Shown here: positions 41,167 through 47,954 of the stretch, piece after piece | Layout of the letters: every line of letters begins with the position of its first letter | Numbering within the stretch: position 1 is the first letter of the stretch | Assembly: GCA_009693115.1 (NCBI GenBank) | Contig: SHXW01000013.1 | Location: 1-64,000, forward strand | Reading direction: 5' to 3' | Origin: Dehalococcoidia bacterium | GTDB lineage: Bacteria > Chloroflexota > Dehalococcoidia > Lucifugimonadales > Lucifugimonadaceae | DNA: 64,000 nt | Notes under the pieces: generated by a model | What the model was told of the DNA's origin: nothing | What the model saw: the letters and a program-made list of their open reading frames with translations, nothing else | The model's database searches: none | Translations under genes and position numbers: made by a program

Positions 41167-41460
41167 CAACCGTCGCACCGCTCCGTTCAACAGGCTCACG
41201 GAGCACAGGCAAGGTTTATTTTGCGGTGCGGGAGATCAGGGGCAGCGCCGTCTCTGACAACAAAATCCACAGACGGCCGGAATAGCGTATCCTAGATGGC
41301 GCAGGTTGTTCGATGGCCTTCCAAAGCTATGACGCCCCCCGCCAACTGCAGCGGCAGGTTTCTGTAGTCGTGGCTCGCCTCCAATTCTGCGCCCCGCCAT
41401 TTCTGTGGCGCGGCACAATTCTCCGGTCGGCAAAAGCCCCCGAATAGAAGGACAACGACG

Positions 41461-42747
41461 ATAACTACCAGTTCATTTTCCAGCCTCGAACTCATCGAGG
41501 CTCTTCAGCGCGCCGTCAAGGCCGAGAACTACGAAGAGCCCACTCAGATCCAGCAACAGGCCATCCCCCCCCTGCTGCAGGGACGAGACCTCCTGGCTTG
41601 CGCACAGACCGGCTCCGGCAAAACCGCAGCCTTCGCGCTGCCCATCCTCCAGCGCCTTGCCACTTCAAACAAGCGCCCTGTCAGGTTCACGCCCCAGGCC
41701 CTTGTGCTGGCGCCCACTCGTGAGTTGGCCACACAGATCGCAGACAGCTTCAAGACCTACGGCCGCTACCTACCGATGGTGAGCACGGCAATCTACGGCG
41801 GTGTGGGACAGGATCGGCAGGTCAGCCAGCTGACGCGAGGTGTTGACGTGCTGGTCGCCACGCCAGGTCGCCTGGTTGACCTGATGGAACAGCGATATGT
41901 GTATCTGGACCAGGTCGAGGTGTTCGTCCTCGATGAGGCCGACCGCATGCTCGACCTCGGGTTCATCGTGGATGTCCGCAGGATCATCCGCACGCTGCCC
42001 ACAACGCGCCAGACGATGCTCTTCTCGGCGACCATGCCCCCCGCTGTTGCCTCCCTCGCGCACAGCCTCCTCAACGATCCGGTCACTGTCATGGTGACGA
42101 CGGCCACAGAGTCCGCCCCAAAGATCGAAGAAAGCGTGATGTTCGTTGACCGCAATCACAAGGCCGCCGCGTTGAGCGATGTGTTGAAGCGACCTGAAGT
42201 GACACGCGCCTTGATCTTTACCCGCACGAAGCACGGCGCAGACCGGTTGGTCCGTCAACTTGGCGAATTCCGCATCACCGCTGACGCCATGCATGGCAAC
42301 AAGTCCCAGAATGTCAGAGAGCGGACACTTCAGGACTTCAAGAGCGGCCGGGTACGGTTCCTGGTTGCCACTGATATCGCCGCCCGCGGGATCGACGTCG
42401 AGGCCATCACTCACATCGTCAATTACGACCTGCCTGATGAGCCCGAATCGTACGTCCACCGCATCGGCCGCACCGCACGCGCCGGTGCAACCGGAGCCGC
42501 CATCTCCCTGTGTTCAATGGAGGAGGAGACGAACCTCCGGAACATCGAGAGGTCTCTTCGCCGCCGTATCCCGGTGGTGGAGTCCGATGGACGCCCGTCG
42601 GCAGCCCCCGTGCTTCCGATGCCCCCGGCTGCGGTCCTGGCCGGAGCCAACCGCCCCAAGATGGTCTTTACGACAAACCGGCGGCTGGCTGCACGCCAGT
42701 TCGAAAGAAAGCCGTCGTTCGGCGCAGGCGTCCGGCGGACAGGATAG
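41461..42747 (+). CDS. DEAD-box RNA helicase (RhlE-like) lacking a canonical start codon
   Basis: An ATP-dependent RNA helicase. Homology begins upstream of the first GTG (41704). The Q motif (EPTQIQQQAI) and Walker A (AQTGSGKTAAF) are encoded from about 41530. The frame is open from 41368 but contains no ATG, GTG or TTG before 41704. The most likely start is ATA at 41461, nine bases after AGAAGG (41446-41451). Other motifs are PTRELATQI, VLDEADRMLDLGF, LFSATMP and HRIGRTARAG. About 428 residues. A point change of ATG to ATA, or a genuine rare start, would explain it. Confidence 0.9.
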   Translation: MTTSSFSSLELIEALQRAVKAENYEEPTQIQQQAIPPLLQGRDLLACAQTGSGKTAAFALPILQRLATSNKRPVRFTPQALVLAPTRELATQIADSFKTYGRYLPMVSTAIYGGVGQDRQVSQLTRGVDVLVATPGRLVDLMEQRYVYLDQVEVFVLDEADRMLDLGFIVDVRRIIRTLPTTRQTMLFSATMPPAVASLAHSLLNDPVTVMVTTATESAPKIEESVMFVDRNHKAAALSDVLKRPEVTRALIFTRTKHGADRLVRQLGEFRITADAMHGNKSQNVRERTLQDFKSGRVRFLVATDIAARGIDVEAITHIVNYDLPDEPESYVHRIGRTARAGATGAAISLCSMEEETNLRNIERSLRRRIPVVESDGRPSAAPVLPMPPAAVLAGANRPKMVFTTNRRLAARQFERKPSFGAGVRRTG

Positions 42748-42969: not shown

Positions 42970-43506
42970 TTGTTCAAGCAAGGTGGACTGTAAGCCGAGT
43001 TCTGTGGCGCCACCGCTACGGGTTTACAGCCCTAAGGCCTTCATCCCCGCCGTGCGGCGTCTGGCAGCCATCCGTCTAGTCACCGGTTCGCACCGGAGAT
43101 CAAGCAGCCAACCCGGAGGCTCGCCGGGCCAGCGATACGCCTCCCTATTTGGCCTTGCACCGGGTGGGGTTTGCCCTGCCCCGTCTGTTACCAGCCGGGC
43201 GGTGCGCTCTTGCCGCACCATTTCACCCTTACCCCGGCTCCGCTCCACATCGCCGGACACTGCTGGGTAATGCCTTCACCCTTGGCCCTCTCTGGTGGAG
43301 AGGGGAGTGTCTGATGATCCGGAGCAGGAGCCGGGGCGGTATGTTTCTGTTGCACTTTCCGTCGGGTCACCCCGCCCTGCCGTTAGCAGGCACCCTGGCT
43401 CGATGGTGCTCGGACTTTCCTCCCCCATTTCGGCCCTTGTTCCGTCATCCCGGCAAGCCGGGGCTCAGGGGGCCGTACTGGCGGCGGCTGCCCGTCCACC
43501 TTGCTC
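42970..43506 (-). ncRNA. rnpB: RNase P RNA
   Basis: The catalytic RNA of RNase P, which matures tRNA 5' ends. On the minus strand the 5' region has GAGGAAAGTCCGAGC followed by the conserved ACAGAAA region, and the 3' end has ACAGAACTCGGCTTAC, all hallmarks of bacterial RNase P RNA (P4 helix strands and J regions). The P1 helix is identifiable: 11 bases at 43494-43504 pair perfectly with 42978-42988. At about 530 bases it is longer than the usual 350-450. A palindrome at 43286-43304 lies within an expanded region. A weak -10 (TATGCT) lies just upstream. Confidence 0.92.
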
Positions 43507-43701
43507 GTCCTCAGCATAGACCCATGGTCAAGCGCTGGGGGGATTGGAACCGAGCACCGGCCGCTGTGCCTTTCTGAGCACAGCTAGAACCCCTTGACGA
43601 ATTTTCACATTGCCTGCCAACCCTCCCCTTGCCAGGGATAGTAGGCATACGACCTCTCACCCCAATATCTCCCACAAGGAAGAGGGAACGTTCAGGCGGG
43701 T

Positions 43702-45204
43702 TCAGGCGGCAGGAGCGTGCTCGGCCTGCTGCTGCTTCATTACGACTTCGAGCCGGTCCGTGTAGAGGACAACGCGCTCGATGAGGGATGCCATGTCGGG
43801 CGCAACAACCAGGGCCGTGACACCCGCAGCAAGGGGTGCAGCCTGATCGCGCGGGCGACTGCCCTCCCGCGCGGCGCGCAGCGTCGCGAGCGCTGCGGCG
43901 ACGTTCGGATATCTGGCACGCCCGGCAGTGAGGAGCCGCAACGTCTGGACGAAGTCCCGCCCGGCGGCTTCGAGATTGCGATGTGGAACAGCGCTCCCAA
44001 CGGGCGCAGGCGAGGCTGCACCACTCGACAGGACAGATGCGCCACAGGGTTTACCAGACGCCCCATCCATCTCTGGAACGGTTGTTATTGCATTGGGGAT
44101 GAGATCCACAAGGACCGGCAGGCCGATGCGTGCGCGGACCTGCTTCTCCAGGTCTTCTGCGTGCCACGATGGGTGTGCGGGGCTGTTCATGCCCTTCGAG
44201 AGCCTTGGTGCGCGGGCACGGCATTCGTAGTACCGATAGATGGCGGACTGTTTCGCTCCGTCCTTGTTTGACCAAACCCTGCGTCGAGTCAGGCCAAAGG
44301 CGCCAGCCCCGCAGACACCGCACTTGACGAGGCCTCCGAGGGTGAACGGCTCTGCCGAGCGACCGCGCCGGTGTGGCTTCCTGCTCTGGATGAGGGTCTG
44401 GGCTTGAGTGAAAACGGTGCGGTCTACGATGGGCTGATGTGCGCCTCCGATGAAGTTACCGTAGCGGGCATACACGCCAGCATAGGCGCGGTTGCGCAGG
44501 ATGCTGGCTATCGCAACGGGCGTCCATGGCAGGCCCTTGCGTGTTCTGCTGCCATCACCATTGAGATGGTTGGCTATCCGGCGGAGGCCGATGCCCTGCC
44601 CTTGCTTAGTGGTGGCCGGCGGCTGAGACGGAAACGCTGAGATGACGCCCTGAGAGGACACACCGGTATACAAGGCGAAGATACTGCGGACGGTGTCCGA
44701 CTCCTCTGGTACAGGCTTTAGCTGCCCATCCAAACCGACAGAGTAGCCGTACGGGGTGCGGCCCAAGACCTCTCCACGGGCAGCCTTGGCGAGGATAGAT
44801 TTACGAACGCGCTTGTTCCGGTCCTGGAGCGGGCCTCGCAGGCCGAGCCGCTCGAGCCCGTTGAGCACGATATCGGGATACTGAGAGTCCAGGCAGCGAA
44901 TCTCAGAGCCTGTCTCCTTGATTTCCAGGACGCGGGCCGCCAGAGTTTCCAGATCATGTGCAAGGTGCCTGGAGTCTGGCACCAGAATGAGCGCGGGACG
45001 CGCCTTGACGATTCCAATGAGCTCGCGATAGGCGTCTGCTTGTTGCTGGCCTTCGCCCGGTGTGAACAAGCCGGCAAGCTGGTGCCCGTTCTTTTCGCAG
45101 TAACGCCTTATGGCGTCTGCGTCGGGGTTGGTTTGACTCACCTGTGAGGACGCCGCGCCCGCTACGAGCTGCGGCAATGTGAGGAAGAGACCTGCTGCGC
45201 GCAT
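43702..45204 (-). CDS. Serine recombinase family protein with eroded catalytic domain
   Basis: A 500-residue homologue of large serine recombinases. The recombinase domain (about 150-260, with GEVLGRTPYGYSVG and RRIANHLNGDG) and the zinc beta-ribbon (LGGLVKCGVCGAG, YYECRARA) are well preserved. In the N-terminal resolvase domain the YxRxS motif is degraded: Ser and a downstream Gln can be aligned (SQVSQ), but Tyr and Arg are replaced by Gly and Ala. DRLSR reads DSRHLAH. Strand exchange is therefore doubtful. It sits between the zinc-ribbon gene and rnpB. Confidence 0.82.
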   Translation of the reverse strand: MRAAGLFLTLPQLVAGAASSQVSQTNPDADAIRRYCEKNGHQLAGLFTPGEGQQQADAYRELIGIVKARPALILVPDSRHLAHDLETLAARVLEIKETGSEIRCLDSQYPDIVLNGLERLGLRGPLQDRNKRVRKSILAKAARGEVLGRTPYGYSVGLDGQLKPVPEESDTVRSIFALYTGVSSQGVISAFPSQPPATTKQGQGIGLRRIANHLNGDGSRTRKGLPWTPVAIASILRNRAYAGVYARYGNFIGGAHQPIVDRTVFTQAQTLIQSRKPHRRGRSAEPFTLGGLVKCGVCGAGAFGLTRRRVWSNKDGAKQSAIYRYYECRARAPRLSKGMNSPAHPSWHAEDLEKQVRARIGLPVLVDLIPNAITTVPEMDGASGKPCGASVLSSGAASPAPVGSAVPHRNLEAAGRDFVQTLRLLTAGRARYPNVAAALATLRAAREGSRPRDQAAPLAAGVTALVVAPDMASLIERVVLYTDRLEVVMKQQQAEHAPAA

Positions 45205-45425
45205 GTGGCTACCCTTTCTTGAACTCAGGGCGAGCCTAGCGGTCCCCCGTCCTGACAGAAAAGCGTGTCACGTGCAGGTTTTGATGATTTTTGACGTGCT
45301 GATTAGGTCATGGGGTGCGCGGACTGGAATAGTCGACGCGCAGCATGGGCGACGATCCTTCGCGCACCCTTCAGCATTCAGCCTGGCTGAGTACCATCCC
45401 TGCCACAGAGAATTGGCGTGGTCGC

Positions 45426-46127
45426 CTATTCGGCGAGGAGGATACGACCGCAGCTGGAACAAGAGATGAGACCATCTGAAACGCGCATCTTGGAAACCTC
45501 GCGTAGAGGTAGCCGCACGCGGCAGCCCTGACAAACGCCGCGTTCTACTTTTACAACGGCCATGCCAGATTTGCGCCGCATGAGCGACTCATAGAACTTC
45601 AGGTCGTCCTCGGGGATGCCTGATGCTTCCTTACTGCGTTTCTTACTGATCCCGTCGCATTCTTTCGAAAGACGGTTCTTGTCCGAAGACAACTGCTGCT
45701 CGGTTATCTTCCACGCATCTTCCTGGTCAGCGAGCTGTTTTCCGAGGTCATCGTGACGGCGCCTGGCTTCCTCGGCAGAGGCCAGAGTAGGGCCAAGGCC
45801 CTGTTCGAGAGTGGCGTACTGCCTGCGGGCTGCGGCGTGCTCCGTCTCTACGGCCTGAAGTTCACGGACGTTGGTGATCGCGCCGCTGTAAAGGCGTTCC
45901 TCGAGCTGACTCAGGCGATCTTTGACCTGGGCAAGTTCTTGTTCCATCTTGGCGTGTTCAACGCGGGCTTCAAGCTCCCTAACGCGTGACTTTTCCGCCT
46001 TTTCCTTTAGCTCCGGGAGGCCGCCACGTGCCTCCAACTTTTCGGACGTATCACGAAACTCTCGCCTGCGTACGGCGTATGCCTGGTCTGTTGACTGCAA
46101 TGACAGGAGGAGGGCGGCTAAACTCAA
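45426..46127 (-). CDS. Coiled-coil C4-type zinc-ribbon protein (DUF164/CdsZ-like)
   Basis: A 233-residue protein. Residues about 20-160 form a long heptad-rich coiled coil. The C-terminus has two Cys pairs, CQGC and CSSC, forming a zinc ribbon. This family is often found near rnpB in bacteria; here the recombinase homologue separates the two. The start appears to be TTG. The molecular function is not firmly known; a nucleic acid or chaperone-like role has been proposed. Confidence 0.88.
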   Translation of the reverse strand: MSLAALLLSLQSTDQAYAVRRREFRDTSEKLEARGGLPELKEKAEKSRVRELEARVEHAKMEQELAQVKDRLSQLEERLYSGAITNVRELQAVETEHAAARRQYATLEQGLGPTLASAEEARRRHDDLGKQLADQEDAWKITEQQLSSDKNRLSKECDGISKKRSKEASGIPEDDLKFYESLMRRKSGMAVVKVERGVCQGCRVRLPLREVSKMRVSDGLISCSSCGRILLAE

Positions 46128-46394: not shown

Positions 46395-47954
46395 ATGACG
46401 GAGGAGAAGCACGCTGTGACTACGGCGAACCAGAATCTCGCGTTTACTGCGCCTAAATTCGCGCTCGACAGGCCACGGACGCGCATGGTCGTGACAATCG
46501 GTCCTGCGACCAGGGGGCTGGAAACGATCAAGGACCTGATGCGCAGGGGCGTGTCCGTTATCCGTATGAACCTTTCACACGGCACGAGACCTGATTGGGA
46601 CGCTGACACCCGCACTATCAGACAGGCAGCAGCAGACTTGAATATAGCTGTCGGTATTCTGGCTGATCTGCCCGGCCCCAAGAGGCGCACGGGAGCGGTG
46701 GTGGGTGGGGGTGTCAACCTTGTACGGGACGCGCTCCTAGTGCTGACATCTGGCAATAGGCACGATGGGGTGATGCGCATTGCCATAAACCCGGGCGGCC
46801 TTGAACACGACGTGAAGCCCGGCGCGTTGGTGTGGCTCGATGACGGCAAGATCAAGCTGAGAGTGGAACGCATCGAGGGCGAGGATGTGGTCTGCCGGGT
46901 CGCTGTTGGCGAGTTGCTGAAGGGCCAGAAGGGCGTGGCGACACCGGGGTCCGTTTCTAACCTTGGCTATATGACCGATGAAACCGTGGAGGCGTTGAAG
47001 TTCGCAGCAGAGTCCGATATCGATTTTGTCGGTGTTTCCTACTGCCGAAGCGTGGCTGATCTAGATCTTGTCCGCAAGGCGCTCCGAGATCAGCACCACA
47101 GGGCCGCCCCGCCGCCCGCCCTGATCGCGAAAATAGAACTCGGCCAGGCGGTCGACAGCCTCGACGCGATCGTTGCCGCACTTGAGGCGAATGACGGCCT
47201 CATGGTGGCGCGCGGCGACCTGGGCGTGGAACTGCCTATCGAGCTTGTGCCGGGCGCACAGAAAAAGATCATTCAGGCCGCGAACCGTGCCGGCAAAGTG
47301 GTCATCACAGCAACCCAGATGCTGGAATCAATGACCACAAACGACCTGCCACTGCGCGCCGAGGTGACCGACGTATATAACGCCGTGCTGGACGGGACGG
47401 ATGCAGTGATGCTGTCCGGCGAGACTTCAATAGGAAAGTACCCGCTGGAGACCGTTGAGTTCATGGCCAAGATCGCGAAGGAGGCTGAAAAGGCGCTTGA
47501 CCATGACAGCCTCCAACAGCGCAGGTATGCCGGCATGCAATCGAGCGGACACACCGCAATGGACGAGGCGATTGCGCACAGCGCATTCAGTGTGGCGAAG
47601 ACGCTTCAGGCAAAGGTGATCGTGGCGTTTACCGAAGGCGGCAGTACGGCGGCCAGAGTGGCGTCATTCCGCCCGAGAGCCCTGGTACTGGCGCTTGTAC
47701 GGCACCAGTACGCGGCGCGGAGGCTGTCTCTCAGGTGGGGCGTGATGCCGATCGAGGTACCGCCTTTGAGGACTATCGAGGTGATGTTCTATGAAGGATC
47801 GCACGCAGCATTGCTTACTGGCCTAGCCGCGCACGGAGACCAGGTGGTTGTGGTGATGGGCGTTCCCATAGGCTTCGCAGGTAACACGAACCTGCTCCGC
47901 GTGATGCGCCTGCCGGAACCGAGACCAACTCAGGCTGCCGATGTTTCAGCCTGA
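46395..47954 (+). CDS. pyk: Pyruvate kinase
   Basis: The glycolytic enzyme that converts phosphoenolpyruvate and ADP to pyruvate and ATP. It has 519 residues, with an N-terminal extension of about 25 before RTRMVVTIGPAT. MNLSHGTR and DLPGPKRRTG form the substrate/metal site. Catalytic loops are IAKIELGQAVDSLDAIV (Lys-Ile-Glu), DGLMVARGDLGVELP and VITATQMLESMT. The C-terminal allosteric domain follows TDVYNAVLDGTDAVMLSGET. AGGAAGAG precedes the ATG. Confidence 0.96.
   Translation: MTEEKHAVTTANQNLAFTAPKFALDRPRTRMVVTIGPATRGLETIKDLMRRGVSVIRMNLSHGTRPDWDADTRTIRQAAADLNIAVGILADLPGPKRRTGAVVGGGVNLVRDALLVLTSGNRHDGVMRIAINPGGLEHDVKPGALVWLDDGKIKLRVERIEGEDVVCRVAVGELLKGQKGVATPGSVSNLGYMTDETVEALKFAAESDIDFVGVSYCRSVADLDLVRKALRDQHHRAAPPPALIAKIELGQAVDSLDAIVAALEANDGLMVARGDLGVELPIELVPGAQKKIIQAANRAGKVVITATQMLESMTTNDLPLRAEVTDVYNAVLDGTDAVMLSGETSIGKYPLETVEFMAKIAKEAEKALDHDSLQQRRYAGMQSSGHTAMDEAIAHSAFSVAKTLQAKVIVAFTEGGSTAARVASFRPRALVLALVRHQYAARRLSLRWGVMPIEVPPLRTIEVMFYEGSHAALLTGLAAHGDQVVVVMGVPIGFAGNTNLLRVMRLPEPRPTQAADVSA

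Follow-up and report, generated by a model that had tools for sequence, protein, structure and literature searches.

A class-wide large serine recombinase homologue lacking its catalytic residues beside DUF164 and rnpB in Dehalococcoidia

The window analysed in this work is a 64,000-nucleotide stretch of the genome of a Dehalococcoidia bacterium (contig SHXW01000013.1, positions 1 to 64,000), and it carries at 43702..45204, on the minus strand and starting with ATG, a gene for a 500-aa, apparently catalytically dead homologue of the large serine recombinases (LSRs). Its family occurs class-wide at a conserved position next to a DUF164 zinc-ribbon gene and rnpB, has lost the catalytic residues, is under purifying selection and is co-inherited with its neighbours. 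The family is probably a domesticated, non-cutting pseudo-integrase that binds DNA sequence-specifically and has been inherited vertically after capture of an LSR.

Domains, predicted structure and loss of the active site

A recombinase homologue between a zinc-ribbon gene and rnpB had been proposed in an earlier note on this DNA and was confirmed, with the open reading frame at exactly 43702-45204(-); in its product a resolvase fold and an αE helix can be recognised, as can the recombinase domain, the zinc ribbon and C-terminal helices. Pfam searches returned PF07508 (Recombinase; 5.6e-13, 49.5 bits vs a cut-off of 21.1) and PF13408 (zinc ribbon; 8.5e-7, 29.7 bits vs 25.3), with PF00239 (Resolvase) below its cut-off (14.4 bits vs 23.3), and integrase family phrog_95 of PHROGs matched at 1.6e-37. 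Among 40 sampled family members, PF07508 was present in 40/40, the zinc ribbon in 39/40 and PF00239 in 13/40, the last two at E<=0.001. Judged from these matches together with the structure model, the window protein is by descent a member of the large serine recombinase superfamily, its N-terminal resolvase domain being recognised by the predicted fold.

Along the minus strand, the protein consists of a resolvase-fold N-terminal domain without catalytic residues (residues 1-124, 44833..45204, assigned by pLDDT and fold match), an alpha-E helix region leading into the DNA-binding domains (residues 125-143, 44776..44832, structure model), the PF07508 recombinase DNA-binding domain (residues 144-280, 44365..44775, Pfam and structure model), the PF13408 zinc ribbon with three of four cysteines (residues 281-360, 44125..44364) and a partly disordered C-terminal part (residues 361-500, 43705..44124, structure model and fold alignment), in which two helices (405-426 and 432-448) and a closing pair of beta strands align with the C-termini of large serine integrases. 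A low-confidence insert at residues ~181-203 (44596..44664, minus strand) is shorter or absent in relatives according to alignments and pLDDT. The window copy is unlike its relatives in this extra insert (residues 181-203), in its 221-bp gap to DUF164 and in its long branch. The DNA-binding and zinc-ribbon parts had been described as intact, which stands in that both domains were recognised and fails at one zinc ligand: Cys295, Cys298 and Cys328 are present and the fourth cysteine has given way to another residue, perhaps a His within NSPAHPSW. The fourth zinc cysteine is missing in 45/161 family members.

The structure model (mean pLDDT 81, pTM 0.57) reached pLDDT >90 over the bulk of the N-terminal and DNA-binding regions, residues 11-30 excepted, and fell below 50 at residues 188-192, 363-401 and 451-466; by fold search, the low-confidence parts may adopt other folds. 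The best PDB matches were DNA-bound serine integrases over their full length (9y66, Z 17.5; 9iub, 14.1; 4kis, 13.9), the large full-length rmsd probably reflecting domain arrangement. The N-terminal domain aligned with TP901-1 at Z 12.5 (rmsd 3.1 Å, 115 residues) and with gamma-delta resolvase 1zr2 at Z 11.0 (rmsd 2.7 Å, 97 residues). Fold and domain order (resolvase, alpha-E, recombinase domain, zinc ribbon, C-terminal helices) are equal to those of the SPbeta YokA/SprA (9y66, 9dxh), A118/LI (4kis), Bxb1 (9iub) and phiC31 (9rah) integrases; unlike these structure-solved enzymes, the window protein lacks the catalytic residues, and its gene is chromosomal and vertically inherited, with no element or att sites seen. 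The CcrA/CcrB and XisF recombinases of NCBIfam matched the DNA-binding part weakly (best 3.1e-9), but the window protein lay far under their cut-offs (36 bits vs 900 for CcrB). PADLOC defence models gave 0 families at E<=0.01 with the window protein, and a role in anti-phage defence was rejected.

Active-site positions are given in what we take to be gamma-delta resolvase numbering, with columns fixed on the ordinary LSRs of the phylum, and R8, S10, R45, R68 and R71 were scored as the catalytic set. The window protein begins MRAAGLFLTL, so aligned that the YxRxS of active enzymes is replaced by LxLxL: LFLTL (residues 6-10, 45175..45189, minus strand) stands in place of Y6, R8 and S10, and HLAH (residues 80-83, 44956..44967, minus strand) at the R68-xx-R71 position puts a His in place of each arginine. 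The catalytic Tyr and Arg are gone, as had been claimed, and the loss is wider, extending to Ser10, R68 and R71. By its catalytic residue set, the window protein would not be a functional serine recombinase, and strand cleavage has presumably been lost. An upstream start restoring the catalytic motif was rejected, since none occurs in the 21 in-frame codons before the window ATG; the N-termini of the family all begin at an equal place.

All five catalytic residues were found together in 0/161 non-redundant family members vs 19/21 ordinary LSRs of the phylum, which are the nearest catalytic relatives in the phylum search (for example in f53); the two remaining controls keep three and zero. Two LSR matches in that search contain an internal TGA. 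Among the 161 members, 63 keep none of the residues, 67 one, 29 two, 2 three and 0 more, and Ser10 is kept in 13. An alignment-independent motif search, in which the place in the protein was not fixed, found an R68-x-x-R71-like string in 12/161 members vs 21/21 LSRs. His is the commonest family residue in the R68 column (75/183). Members from f58 are intermediate, with position 10 occupied by Thr in several and by other residues elsewhere, and position 68 mostly by His, and two of them (G117 and G168) match PF00239 above the cut-off. Relatives with an intact YxRxS formally exist, a few class members reading YFRES or YVRAS, but R45, R68 and R71 are kept by none of them.

Net charge of the N-terminal domain was -6 in the family vs +1 in LSRs (161 members and 19 LSRs, after omission of two LSR rows), and median net charge of the DNA-binding part was +18 vs +16 (161 members, 19 LSRs). 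New residues conserved in the N-terminal domain across the order (C36, H41, P76, H80, L81, C104 and D111-P112-x-Q114; C36 in 56/61 and C104 in 55/61 members within the order) suggest that this domain may have gained a new surface or ligand.

Occurrence and neighbourhood

A profile of 38 members was searched against 294 class genomes, and rows down to 5.3e-73 were taken as the strong tier, in which the family gene was present in at least 150 different Dehalococcoidia genomes (one row each, among the matches listed). At 1e-25 the same profile matched 198/294 genomes (127/184 genera), a count that includes ordinary LSRs, and a first search of 100 relatives gave a match in 86 (41/51 genera), which may include them also. 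Across 201 genomes of the phylum, the best match outside the class was 1.6e-54. Family and ordinary LSRs were separated by a score gap, with 183 family ORFs at >=255 bits vs 21 ordinary Chloroflexota LSRs at <=180 bits. The best of 38 hits on viral contigs scored 154.8 bits to the family profile, under the family's 255, and no plasmid or phage record covered 80% of the window protein. When contigs of named genomes were scanned, 109/114 pattern matches proved to encode a relative; the 80 loci among the matches listed have titles naming Chloroflexi/Chloroflexota, Dehalococcoidia, the SAR202 cluster and Tepidiforma, and other titles in the scan were Bacterium HR29, bacterium UCB2, Anaerolinea sp. 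and Thermoflexaceae. The genomes include many MAGs, and the genome sets overlap, the genomes searched and the named loci sharing assemblies, so that the order, class and named-locus counts are not independent.

In the window, a DUF164/CT398-type coiled-coil zinc-ribbon gene (45426..46127, minus strand; PF24481 4.9e-10, PF02591 2e-8) lies upstream of the recombinase homologue across a 221-bp spacer (45205..45425), and rnpB, the class A RNase P RNA (42975..43503, minus strand; RF00010, 268 bits, E 2.2e-86), lies downstream across a 198-bp spacer (43504..43701). The divergent neighbour at 46395..47954 (plus strand), which we take to be pyruvate kinase by its sequence type, is retained in most relatives of the order. 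At 41401-42747, a frame presumably belonging to the DEAD-box-type helicase family carries GSGKT and PTRELA together and stays open beyond its listed GTG (41704) on the upstream side, where no listed start codon precedes the two motifs.

In most relatives, DUF164 and the recombinase homologue overlap by 4 bp or nearly touch. Adjacency was counted with HMMs built from the hits of this analysis. Of 60 regions within the order, 55 had DUF164 immediately upstream in the same orientation and 54 had rnpB downstream, at <=300 bp in 47; DUF164 adjoined the family gene in 33 of 40 further class regions. Of the 80 named loci listed, 77 have DUF164 upstream in the same orientation, and two of the three exceptions begin at a contig edge; rnpB was detected in 56. 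When 14 loci without HMM-found rnpB were scanned with Rfam, no rnpB appeared there either, and one contained an SRP RNA. At L128:4278-4545, a large SRP RNA, not rnpB, is directly downstream of the recombinase homologue, and at L245:6783-6914 a c-di-AMP riboswitch is downstream of the family gene.

Outside the strong tier, 55 genomes were examined, of which 41 had DUF164, 49 rnpB and 39 both. In 23 of these 39, both genes had the same orientation, with DUF164 at most 3 kb upstream of rnpB, bearing out the earlier statement that the two often adjoin; in 11 they were on different contigs and in 5 apart on one contig. The distance from zinc ribbon to rnpB without the family gene was 60 bp in G081, from the window's order, 55 bp in G111 and 61 bp in G146, and about 530 bp in the f53 genomes G112, G147 and G193. 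A profile search detected no gene remnants in 20 regions that lack the family. The separation of DUF164 from rnpB had been read as a local insertion, which was rejected: position and active-site loss are both kept across the class and are ancient. Because the adjacency of DUF164 and rnpB also occurs in genomes without the gene, the best explanation is that an LSR inserted into a pre-existing neighbourhood and that losses followed later, and the class-wide position together with this empty arrangement argues for ancient entry, lost catalysis and vertical inheritance.

Because of this neighbourhood, the main rival is that the protein has an RNA or protein partner instead of DNA sites, working with the DUF164 protein or in the expression or assembly of RNase P RNA. 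The 4-bp overlap with DUF164 in many loci, the frequent place directly before rnpB and protein distances that track DUF164 (below) speak for such a role, but DUF164 and rnpB adjoin in genomes without the family gene too, and the gene persists where no rnpB was found nearby, Tepidiforma included. Moreover, 11 of 12 genomes without DUF164 adjacent to the family gene have no DUF164 match anywhere, so a DUF164 partner is not required everywhere. Where the family gene lies far from DUF164 (f41, f46 and f92; Pfam), no neighbour common to all three was found, and a Maf/tRNA-methyltransferase fusion-like ORF is upstream on the opposite strand in f46 and f92. Sequence directly before mature rnpB is conserved in three subclades, which suggests that rnpB may have its own promoter. 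On balance, a partner role of this kind is rather unlikely, though it deserves more weight than the other alternatives.

Inheritance and selection

In a quickly searched tree, for which LSRs served as outgroup and no root was inferred, a branch with 100% SH-aLRT support separates the family from 14 LSRs. In Mantel tests, family protein distances track those of DUF164 with rho 0.784 (n=146) and those of pyruvate kinase with rho 0.662 (n=44), with 0/999 permutations as high in either comparison. Selection was measured for each domain: median NG86 dN/dS was 0.28 for the N-terminal, 0.157 for the DNA-binding and 0.357 for the C-terminal part (416 pairs, which overlap, are non-independent and include duplicate assemblies), and was <1 in all domains of all pairs tested. 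Purifying selection thus acts on all domains of the family gene, and the N-terminal domain is maintained despite its lost chemistry. Flanking att-like repeats, which the earlier note had suggested looking for, were not found around the window gene, where the only repeats are a 15-nt 87% direct repeat at 43450/45071 (in rnpB and in the gene, respectively) and a second pair, of 14 nt, inside rnpB; this is expected if the element itself disappeared long ago.

It is improbable that the family supplies accessory or regulatory subunits to active serine recombinases, or to mobile elements, that share its cells. Homology would allow it, mixed tetramers with dead subunits are conceivable, and the genome of the window has one separate resolvase-domain ORF on another contig (G000:C40:241-672, 1e-36), but a PF00239 match is missing from 17/22 family-bearing genomes, and in a further one, G168, the sole match is the family member itself; with the family mostly in genomes of this kind, such service is unlikely. 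A still-active recombinase using other residues, for which the kept fold and the Ser10 of 13/161 members could be cited, is very hard to reconcile with at most three of five catalytic residues in any member and none in 63, an N-terminal domain turned acidic, the lack of att repeats in the window and vertical inheritance. A decaying relic without function, in keeping with the lost catalytic residues and the odd insert, 221-bp spacer and long branch of the window copy, is already contradicted by reading frames kept class-wide and by a highest dN/dS of any domain or pair <1, and is just as improbable.

Proposed role and significance

Under the preferred reading, that of a domesticated pseudo-integrase, an LSR would have been captured between DUF164 and rnpB in the ancestor of most Dehalococcoidia, would have lost its nucleophile and arginine set, and would then have been inherited vertically as a dead, single-copy chromosomal gene. 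The recombinase domain and zinc ribbon are kept and would still bind DNA, and the folded N-terminal scaffold, which forms dimers and tetramers in active relatives, is kept as well; the protein may accordingly be a dimer, possibly a site-bridging tetramer, with a role as regulator or DNA-organising factor. The earlier proposal of a domesticated DNA-binding protein left from an integrated element holds for a domesticated relative of the recombinases of such elements; its DNA-binding half is a prediction from the retained domains.

Several further ideas about the target and role were dropped. Regions upstream of DUF164 and before rnpB showed promoter-like blocks only, with no shared palindrome by eye, and were not taken as binding-site footprints. 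One conserved DNA target, as argued from conserved arginines, was dropped after a divergence-matched LSR control: 14 divergent family members (mean identity 0.31) kept 5 basic columns and 14 LSRs (0.37) kept 3, and at identity 0.45 an LSR clade of 9 kept 10 and 79 family members kept 9, so that conservation is not clearly greater in the family and does not prove a single target. Replacement of HU or ParB was rejected for want of a clear link between their occurrence and gene presence in 25 genomes. The usual nucleoid proteins seem scarce in the class, HU-type PF00216 being found in 3/25 genomes and ParB_N above cut-off in 9/25.

In searches of the open-licence PMC literature, the titles and abstract openings listed contained no description of such a family, and nothing apparently relevant on inactive or domesticated serine recombinases or on recombinases of Dehalococcoidia, SAR202 or Chloroflexi. 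For DUF164 and RNase P, the only paper found there was PMC3372290, in which rnpB of Borrelia burgdorferi is downstream of a flgZ homologue. The window's neighbour gene belongs to the same DUF164/FlgZ (HP0958) zinc-ribbon family, but the part of the Borrelia flgZ-rnpB account available to this search mentions no recombinase homologue (PMC3372290).

An LSR present across a whole class in one copy, passed on vertically and always inactive, would be a clear example of domestication within the superfamily. Serine integrases are otherwise mobile, enzymatic and quickly exchanged. The family would offer a natural means of separating DNA binding and synapsis from cleavage, and a named relative with a strain record and a complete genome, Tepidiforma flava (NZ_CP115149.1), makes the protein accessible. 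More tentatively, and with somewhat less confidence than in domestication as such, most Dehalococcoidia, including the deep-ocean SAR202 lineages and the cultured Tepidiforma, may rely on this pseudo-integrase as a core chromosomal protein that binds or bridges DNA, in which the synapsis machinery would have been retained to control genes or organise the chromosome and cutting dropped.
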